NCBI GenBank assembly: GCA_022566795.1
Contig: JADFIF010000006.1
Coordinates: forward strand, 1-42,648
Source of the DNA: Chloroflexota bacterium
Lineage (GTDB): Bacteria > Chloroflexota > Dehalococcoidia > Lucifugimonadales > G022566795
Direction: 5' to 3'
Length of the DNA stretch: 42,648 nucleotides
Below the pieces are notes generated by a model. That model was given only the letters and a program-made list of their open reading frames with translations, did no database searches and was not told where the DNA came from. The position numbers and the translations under genes were made by a program. Below, one piece after another: positions 17,101-20,381 of the stretch. Numbering within the stretch: position 1 is the stretch's first letter; each line of letters opens with the position of its first letter.

Positions 17101-18693
17101 ATGCCAGACATCCTGCTTATCTTCGGCATCATTGCCGTTGTGCTCTCGGTCACGGCGTTACTCTCGGGCGTCGTCGAGCGGTCGCCCCTGTCCTTCCCGC
17201 TGATCTTTCTCGGCCTCGGGTTCGTCCTGAGCGAGCGAGGGTTCGGCGTCATCGAGATAGGGCCTCACGATCCGTTGCTGCAGGTCGTGGCGACGCTGAC
17301 GCTGTCGCTGGTGCTGTTCCTAGATGCGGTGAACCTGAGCTTCGCCGAGGTGGGGAGGCGATGGATGGTCCCGGCCCTGGTCCTCGGGCCGGGCACAATC
17401 TTGATTATCACGCTCGGCGCAGTGCCGCTGGCTCTACTGCTGGGGTTTGGGTGGGTGCTGGCGTTTACAGGTGGAGCGATTCTGGCGTCGACCGACCCTG
17501 TCGTGCTCCGAGAGATCATTCGGGACCGCCGGATTCCCCGGTCGGTGCGGCAGACGCTGAAGATCGAGGCCGGGACCAACGACATCGTGATCTTACCGGT
17601 GGTCCTGGTGCTCATCGCCGTCGCTCAAGAGGAGATGTCCAGTGCCGCCGGGTGGGTCGGACTTCTGGCGCGACTGCTTCTGATCGGTCCGGGCATCGGA
17701 ATGGCAATAGGCGGGTTAGGCTCGTGGCTCATGGCCCAGGTCGACAAGCGAATGAGCATCCGGCGAGAGCATCAGGCGCTCTACGGTATCGGCCTCGTCC
17801 TCGCGGCCTACACGGCAGCGACTGCTGCCGGCGGCGACGGATTCCTGGCCGCATTCGGCGCCGGCATAGCGGTCGTCCTCCTGGGCCAGCGCCTGTGCGA
17901 CTGCTTCCTGGAGTATGGCGAGACTACTTCCGAGGTGGCCATGCTGCTGGCCTTCGTACTCTTTGGCGCCGTGCTGGCCGGGATGATCGGCACCGTTTCC
18001 ATCCCGTTGGCCCTCGGCCTCGCGGCCATCGTGATTCTCGTAGTGCGGCCCGCCGTCCTTGGCATCGTGCTGGCTCGAACGAAGATGAGCTGGGAGGCGC
18101 ACGCCCTCGTAAGTTGGTTCGGTCCCAGAGGGCTGAACTCGCTGCTGCTGGCGCTGCTCGTCGTGGAAGCCGGCGTGGCCGGTTCGGAGCTTCTGATGGC
18201 CGCAGTCGGAGTTGTTGTGCTCGTGTCTGTTACGGTCCACGGGGGCACGGCCACGCCCTTCAGCGCTTGGTATGGCCGCATGGCCTCGAGACGCACGCTG
18301 GAAGAGGAGCGAGAGGCGACCGCCGCCGGACTCTTCGCACGGCATCACGAGCATGAGGCGCTCGTGACGCCCGAAGAGCTCCACACGCTTGTAGCCGAGC
18401 CCAATCCCCCAGTGGTGCTCGATGTTCGATCTCGATCGAGCTACGACGGGGATGGAGCGCAGATCCCGGGCAGTGTTCGCGTCCTGCCCGACGAAGCGGT
18501 CGAGTGGGCGGCAGACCAGCCGAGGGATAGGCTGGTGGTCGCTTACTGTGCTTGACCCAGCGAGGCAACCAGCGCCCGTGTGGCGCAGCAGCTTCGAGAG
18601 GTCGGGATGAACGCGGCGGCGCTGGAGGGCGGCATCGATGCGTGGCGGGCGAGCTTCGGGGTCGAGCCTATCCGGGAGCCGGCGCCAGTCTAA
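17101..18693 (+). CDS. CPA-type Na+/H+ antiporter fused to rhodanese, with in-frame TGA (possible selenoprotein)
   Basis: Residues ~1-400 form a cation/proton antiporter of about 12 membrane segments (NhaP-like), with the ion-site motifs ASTDPVV (~139) and AGTNDIV (~159). A C-terminal rhodanese domain begins at LVTPEELHTLV (~421), with VVLDVRSRSSYDGDGAQIPG. At codon 485 (18553-18555) TGA interrupts VVAYCA-TGA-PSEATSARVAQQL; related rhodanese domains read YC-x-CP-EATSA, so TGA replaces a Cys codon two residues after the catalytic Cys. The frame continues to GGIDAWRAS and a TAA at 18691-18693. If TGA is read as Sec the protein has 530 residues; otherwise it ends at 484 without the active-site loop. 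The likely role is proton-coupled cation export with sulfur or redox sensing. Confidence 0.82.
18554..18603 (+). promoter_or_regulatory. Candidate bacterial SECIS hairpin after TGA
   Basis: GCGCC (18572-18576) pairs with GGCGC (18582-18586) around loop CGTGT, whose second base is G, about 22 nt after the TGA. GACC (18554-18557, overlapping the TGA) can pair with GGTC (18600-18603), and AGC (18559-18561) with GCT (18591-18593). Position and loop G fit the published bacterial SECIS rules, but short GC hairpins are common by chance in such DNA. Confidence 0.35.
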
Positions 18694-19451: not shown

Positions 19452-20381
19452 CTAGATGATGGTACGAGGCTTGAAGGTCATCTCATCGAAGGAGCGCTTG
19501 TAGGGCGACTCACCGATCTTGCTCACCCGACCCTTCCCGAGCTTGAATCGGTATCGGAGCGTGATCGGGTCGGGAACTCGGTGGACTACGCTGTTCGCTG
19601 CGGCGCCGTGCCACCGAGGAGACAGGAAGTTAGCGAAGAGCACCCCCTGCCTGACCGCATCCGTGACGATCGCCACAGCTGTAAACTCGCCCCTCCCTTG
19701 GCGGATGAGGCCCTTCTCCTGAAGCTTGGTGAAGAGGAAGTCGTCCCCCTTGGCGATAGAGAATCCTCCCGTCTGGATGAGAACGTCGTCGTTGACAATT
19801 AGCACTTCGTCGCCGCTCTCAATGCCCCTTGGCCCGGCGTCATCGGGGTGGATCTCTATGAAGTGATCGGGCCAGCGCTGGCGCATGTACGGTTTCCTCA
19901 TGTCGTCGAAGGCAGACTGCCACACCTCGTTGACCCGACCGTTGGTAACCCAGAGCTCGTCGCCCCGAGGCTTGATACGCTCGTAGAAGTCGCTGAACCA
20001 CTCCCACGGAGACTTGTTCAAGACCGCCTTGCCGCTGTGTGTGTCGAAGTGCGTGAGCCACTTCGGGTGGACGGTAGGCCCCTGCGGAGGTCCCAGCTCT
20101 AGAGTCGTGTCGTGCAACCGTTTCGTGCCGACCAGCTGGCCGTCGACGAGTCGAATCGGCGTCTGAATGCCGGTCGTGCCCATCTCCCTCAGAAGCTCGT
20201 GGCCCTTCTTGCCTTGCTGACGCGCCACCACGACCAGCGGGTGGTAGTTGAGCATGCCGCCTCTACTAAAGCGGGCGGCCCCCTCGAACACGTCGTTCGA
20301 CTCCTTCCAGTCGTATCCCTTGAAGCCCATCTTCTGGCCGAAGCGGGCAACGATCCACCAGTCGGGTCTTGCCTCCCCGGA
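19452..20381 (-). pseudogene. Arsenite oxidase large subunit-like (AioA) fragment, 5' truncated
   Basis: Only the C-terminal ~310 residues of a molybdopterin oxidoreductase remain. The recognisable AioA-like run ARPDWWIVARFGQKMGFKG begins right after an in-frame TGA (20382-20384), and NGRVNEVWQS, QRWPDHFIEIHPDDA, GIESGDEVLIVNDDV and WHGAAANSVVHRV follow in order. The family is ~800+ residues, so the iron-sulfur and most of the molybdenum-binding part are missing. An internal ATG at 20330 could start a 292-residue product but has no family meaning. No small subunit (aioB) is nearby. It is a deletion remnant, or the C-terminal relic of another DMSO-reductase-family enzyme. Confidence 0.75.

Follow-up and report, generated by a model that had tools for sequence, protein, structure and literature searches.

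A predicted membrane selenoprotein of Chloroflexota combining a CPA1-type antiporter with a selenocysteine-containing rhodanese domain

In the window, a 42,648-nt stretch of DNA from a Chloroflexota bacterium, the ORF at 17101-18693 on the forward strand (start ATG at 17101, TAA terminator at 18691-18693) forms a complete coding sequence of 530 amino acids when its in-frame TGA is read as selenocysteine (Sec), and this frame is colinear with about 50 homologues. Under the standard code the same ORF stops at 484 aa. The sequence predicts that the product joins a CPA1-type Na+(K+)/H+ antiporter to a rhodanese domain at its C-terminus, and the gene very probably encodes a membrane selenoprotein with a Cys483-x-Sec485 active site. 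We regard the fusion as a well-supported candidate selenoprotein, a new architecture made from known modules.

The antiporter domain (residues 17-389; 17149-18267, forward strand) matched Pfam Na_H_Exchanger (PF00999) at 2.1e-34, with 119 bits against a cut-off of 26. N160-D161 (17578-17583, forward strand), which we take to be the ND motif with which CPA1 antiporters bind ions, was invariant in alignment A2, and the other CPA1 hallmarks, D132-P133 and G341-P-R-G, were invariant or nearly so. The predicted structure (pLDDT 84) matched PaNhaP (1.8e-11), SOS1, NHE1, and KefC (9e-9). The AlphaFold confidence was low in the linker, where the segment 414-418 was below 50, so the placement of the antiporter and rhodanese domains relative to each other is uncertain. 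Among protein families, the transport domain came closest to the K+/H+ antiporter models PRK05326 (YcgO/CvrA type; 6.9e-42, under the cut-offs), and a sequence search of the PDB gave only weak matches, to an uncharacterized protein (over the rhodanese domain) and to a NhaP-type antiporter.

The rhodanese domain (residues 423-517; 18367-18651, forward strand) matched Pfam PF00581 (8e-11) as well as the model NF041203 (4.5e-22), and this C-terminus of the antiporter is presumably cytoplasmic. With TGA written as U, the motif around residue 485 is Y-C-A-U-P-S-E-A-T-S-A, in which Cys483 (18547-18549, forward strand), the first residue of the CxU motif, is aligned with the rhodanese catalytic Cys, and the UGA codon for Sec485 occupies 18553-18555 on the forward strand. 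A sequence-only reading of the window had placed this TGA at the second Cys of the rhodanese motif, which agrees with two homologues that have Cys there (YCTCRNEATSA in L036 and YCTCNDEATSA in L035).

We assembled 50 non-redundant Chloroflexota copies covering the TGA position from the relatives, the class, the phylum, and one genome collection. Their identities range from about 69% down to about 40%, they extend outside the class of the source genome, and the named records belong to Dehalococcoidia/SAR202 and other Chloroflexi MAGs. The codon at the Sec position was TGA in 47 copies, TGT in one (L036), TGC in one (L035), and TGG in one (L054/L040). The mixture of TGA, TGC, and TGT that the sequence-only reading had named as a sign of Sec was thus present, with TGA conserved phylum-wide. 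The tree placed both the Cys pair and the copy with Trp among TGA copies, which indicates that Sec is most simply ancestral and was lost twice. Cys483 was invariant in the 35-sequence alignment. Outside this alignment, one copy (L029, G182:C63) has Tyr for Cys483 and keeps the TGA (YYAU); it is possible that Sec is kept there in the absence of the partner Cys, or that the Tyr codon reflects a one-base error. The Trp copy (L054/L040, G066) shows a degraded motif, YCSWHRESSS, and an intact antiporter, and its rhodanese may be decaying. These two cases indicate that neither half of the Cys-Sec pair is absolutely required.

A hairpin with a G in its loop had been proposed downstream of the TGA, and it was recovered at 18572-18586 on the forward strand (GCGCC-CGUGU-GGCGC), +17 to +31 from the TGA. 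It consists of a 5-bp stem (18572-18576/18582-18586) and a 5-nt loop (18577-18581) with G at position 2 of the apical loop, 21 nt from the UGA. The hairpin conforms to the rules given for bacterial SECIS (bSECIS) elements (PMC13188914), which ask for a stem of 4-16 bp, a loop of 3-9 nt with a G within its first two positions, and a spacing of 16-37 nt. Comparison of synonymous codons in 30 TGA copies showed that constraint greatly exceeded expectation at codons +6 to +10, which encode the hairpin, and nowhere else; the flanking codons were used about as expected from codon usage. The hairpin codons were Ser AGC in 29/30, Ala GCC in 25/26, Val GTG in 23/23, and Ala GCG in 27/29 copies, and the Arg codon was CGT in all 30, whereas CGT makes up 10% of the Arg codons of the same genes. 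In the non-TGA copies, the codon in this Arg column was AGA (TGT copy), CGC (TGC copy), or CAC (TGG copy). The loop was CGUGU in 32, CGUGC in 14, and CGGGC in one of the 47 TGA copies; the single variant fits the loop pattern G[G|U] given for bSECIS (PMC13188914). The TGT, TGC, and TGG copies carry AGAGC, CGCGC, and CACGC, respectively, so that the canonical loop is lost in exactly these three. Stem pairs were formed in 98.6% of cells among 43 TGA copies, with both-sided, compensatory changes at three pairs. The peptide SAR[VA]A by itself predisposes the RNA to this stem, which still pairs in the Cys copy L036, so TGA and Cys copies are distinguished by the hairpin loop and the CGT codon and not by stem pairing alone.

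The frame downstream of the UGA is evidently translated. The 45 codons after the Sec codon (18556-18690, forward strand) had been described as open and rhodanese-like up to a TAA, in line with the Pfam Rhodanese match, which continues through residue 517. Within 35 codons after the TGA, none of the 47 TGA copies has an in-frame stop, as against 29 and 24 copies with stops in the other two frames. A codon model fitted to 26 TGA copies gave an omega of 0.041 for the antiporter part, 0.101 for the portion of the rhodanese upstream of the TGA, and 0.168 for the first 35 codons downstream. The last value is expected to be higher since the hairpin suppresses synonymous change, and for the post-TGA codons beyond the SECIS omega was 0.096-0.105. 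These values indicate that the protein sequence downstream of the TGA is under purifying selection, the opposite of the pattern named beforehand as contrary to Sec, namely Cys in all relatives with decay of the downstream sequence. Since the standard code makes these genes look like shortened antiporters, annotation errors may affect dozens of genes in Chloroflexota.

The machinery for Sec insertion is present in the source genome (2.77 Mb, 84.8% complete), as the sequence-only reading had suggested checking. SelB (343 bits, above the cut-off), SelA (548 bits), and SelD (385 bits) were detected, and a tRNA with the anticodon TCA was identified as tRNA-Sec by both ARAGORN and Rfam. The selD gene of this genome (L056, G000:C113:4309-5229) is itself interrupted by an in-frame TGA, in the context CAG-U-ASK where SelD usually carries Sec, so its product would be a Sec-containing SelD. 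SelB was above the cut-off in 41 of the 49 genomes carrying the fusion, and six of the eight with SelB under the cut-off had SelA over it. Neither selA nor selB was found in the fragmented carrier genomes G109 and G830 (77-83% complete), probably because the assemblies are incomplete. All three genomes whose copy has Cys or Trp retained SelA and SelB, so that their codon change cannot be put down to a lost Sec system. With the sel genes, the codon mixture, and the constrained hairpin all in its favour, the Sec reading proposed from the sequence held up, and UGA 18553 would be decoded by SelB and Sec-tRNA by means of the hairpin.

The claim of a new selenoprotein architecture was borne out in part: the fusion to an antiporter seems to be undescribed, but the Sec-rhodanese module is already catalogued, and the novelty appears to be limited to the fusion. 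Rhodanese form 3 (CxU) is listed as a selenoprotein in a 2026 review of the prokaryotic selenoproteome (PMC13188914). NF041203 (rhodanese_LYCAU, 'rhodanese-related (seleno)protein') represents the same rhodanese type with the same Y-C-x-U motif; it has 126 positions and a cut-off of 115 bits, whereas the domain of the fusion scored 78-79 bits, under the cut-off, and forms the C-terminal part of a membrane transporter of 530 aa. This cut-off was reached in none of 197 relatives or 400 phylum genomes, and the strongest matches in the 197 genomes of the source order were the antiporter fusions. The active-site motif YC-x-U/C is present in them, as YCAU here and as YCTU or similar in the homologues. 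The single-domain Sec-rhodaneses that occur in Chloroflexota (e.g. L133, L141, L142, and L148) share with the fusion the C-T-U motif followed by a TSAR/TSTR stretch and, equally far downstream, the hairpin core CCCG[UG]G, but they are open frames of about 130-160 aa lacking the antiporter. The finding of this module with its SECIS both alone and fused is a clear case of a Sec domain shared between architectures. TsoB (form 5, NF045694), a Rhodanese/DsbD fusion-like protein, likewise combines a rhodanese selenoprotein with a membrane-protein-like part (PMC13188914) but differs in its UxxxxU motif and DsbD-like part and has no ion antiporter. The same review mentions several Sec transport proteins and no antiporter or exchanger (PMC13188914). 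A description of a selenoprotein with antiporter and rhodanese was not found in the open-access literature searched, and one may exist elsewhere. The fusion would add a secondary ion transporter to the known selenoprotein architectures.

As to the role of the rhodanese, parallels are offered by antiporters with regulatory domains. YcgO/CvrA/NhaP2, a CPA1 K+/H+ antiporter, represents the family that the transport domain matches best, and PtsN acts on YcgO as a regulator. Its membrane domain of about 383 aa is followed by a cytoplasmic region through which it is regulated (PMC11808508); this region is composed of RCK and CorC-like domains, where the fusion has the Sec-rhodanese. The K+/H+ exchanger KefC is gated by glutathione adducts, and its cytoplasmic domain senses the thiol/electrophile state (PMC10224563, PMC11150392). 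KefC detects glutathione conjugates with an RCK/KTN domain, which also binds nucleotide, and has neither rhodanese nor Sec, whereas no such domain was found at the C-terminus of the fusion, which ends in the rhodanese. By analogy with KefC and YcgO, both regulated by cytoplasmic C-terminal domains (PMC10224563, PMC11150392, PMC11808508), we tentatively propose that the rhodanese regulates antiport according to its redox or persulfide state, a proposal with nearly even prospects. The Cys-x-Sec pair might serve as a fast redox or persulfide-reactive couple, either through a selenenylsulfide between Cys483 and Sec485 or through their reaction with oxidants, electrophiles, or persulfides; the resulting redox state of the rhodanese might then open or close antiport, and cytoplasmic pH and cation level would be coupled to redox or sulfur stress. 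The lack of a conserved neighbour gene in the regions of 18 relatives speaks against an operon partner and suggests that this one polypeptide probably carries the whole function, which was counted in favour of the regulatory reading.

The main competing explanation is that the Sec-rhodanese is simply a membrane-tethered enzyme, a persulfide, oxidant, or sulfur-transfer catalyst that does not gate the antiporter. The single-domain Sec-rhodaneses of the same phylum, with the same motif and SECIS, need no antiporter, and the rhodanese catalytic Cys is retained. However, the antiporter is the most constrained part of the protein (omega 0.04) with invariant ion-binding residues, the fusion is kept across classes, and C-terminal cytoplasmic domains are regulatory in related antiporters; we therefore consider a purely tethered enzyme rather unlikely, although it deserves serious attention. 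The fusion is maintained across several branches of Chloroflexota, in more than one class, and this distribution likewise hints at an ion exchanger controlled through a selenium-based domain. In a broader and somewhat more speculative form, these proteins might constitute a widespread group of selenium-switch antiporters in Chloroflexota, in which oxidation or persulfidation of Cys-x-Sec toggles exchange, possibly together with a selenium-dependent choice between full-length and truncated forms. They provide a concrete candidate for selenium control of membrane ion exchange.

A switch set by selenium status alone is improbable. It would have the UGA act as a stop when selenium is lacking, yielding a 484-aa antiporter that misses half of the rhodanese and is differently regulated. 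Since the UGA lies past the complete antiporter domain, termination would indeed spare the transporter, but the UGAs of most selenoproteins are generally known to mark merely the active site, and a truncated rhodanese is probably unstable.

Decoding of the TGA as an ordinary amino acid in place of Sec, whether by codon reassignment or by programmed readthrough that inserts Trp or Cys, is highly improbable. One homologue has TGG (Trp) at this position, as such decoding might predict, but that copy lacks both the motif and the hairpin loop. Several of the fusion homologues terminate with a TGA stop codon, which rules out general stop-codon reassignment, and the dedicated tRNA-Sec and SelB in the genome and the SECIS-type hairpin with G in its loop also argue against it. 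A nonsense mutation or sequencing error, which the sequence-only reading had held to be the main alternative, would need one base (TGC/TGT to TGA) in one strain and would leave the antiporter domain, which finishes well upstream, with a broken rhodanese tail, but it is excluded for practical purposes by the 47/50 TGA codons spread phylum-wide and by the tree, which makes the Cys and Trp copies derived, and is further contradicted by the downstream omega of about 0.1 and by the hairpin kept at synonymous sites.

Plasmid or viral spread of the fusion was considered and rejected, as no match came from viral contigs and those in plasmid sequences were confined to a part of the antiporter. In one genome (G165), the fusion gene has a second, shorter antiporter-related ORF of 431 aa (L126) at a distance of about 1 kb. 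In the window, 19452-20330 on the reverse strand encodes the C-terminal part of a molybdopterin oxidoreductase, arsenite-oxidase-like by eye; it has no upstream in-frame N-terminal half and is probably a remnant. Further rhodanese ORFs in relatives, only weakly related to this one and each with a single in-frame TGA (G049:C5:11756-12079, G049:C6:73209-73487, G092:C179:30103-30429, G066:C1:2054433-2054753, and G003:C1:1035085-1035408) are possibly other Sec-rhodanese forms. Rhodanese matches with two in-frame TGAs were observed in G213:C47, G657:C55, G650:C3, G636:C313, and G727:C29, and it is possible that these represent two-Sec rhodaneses.
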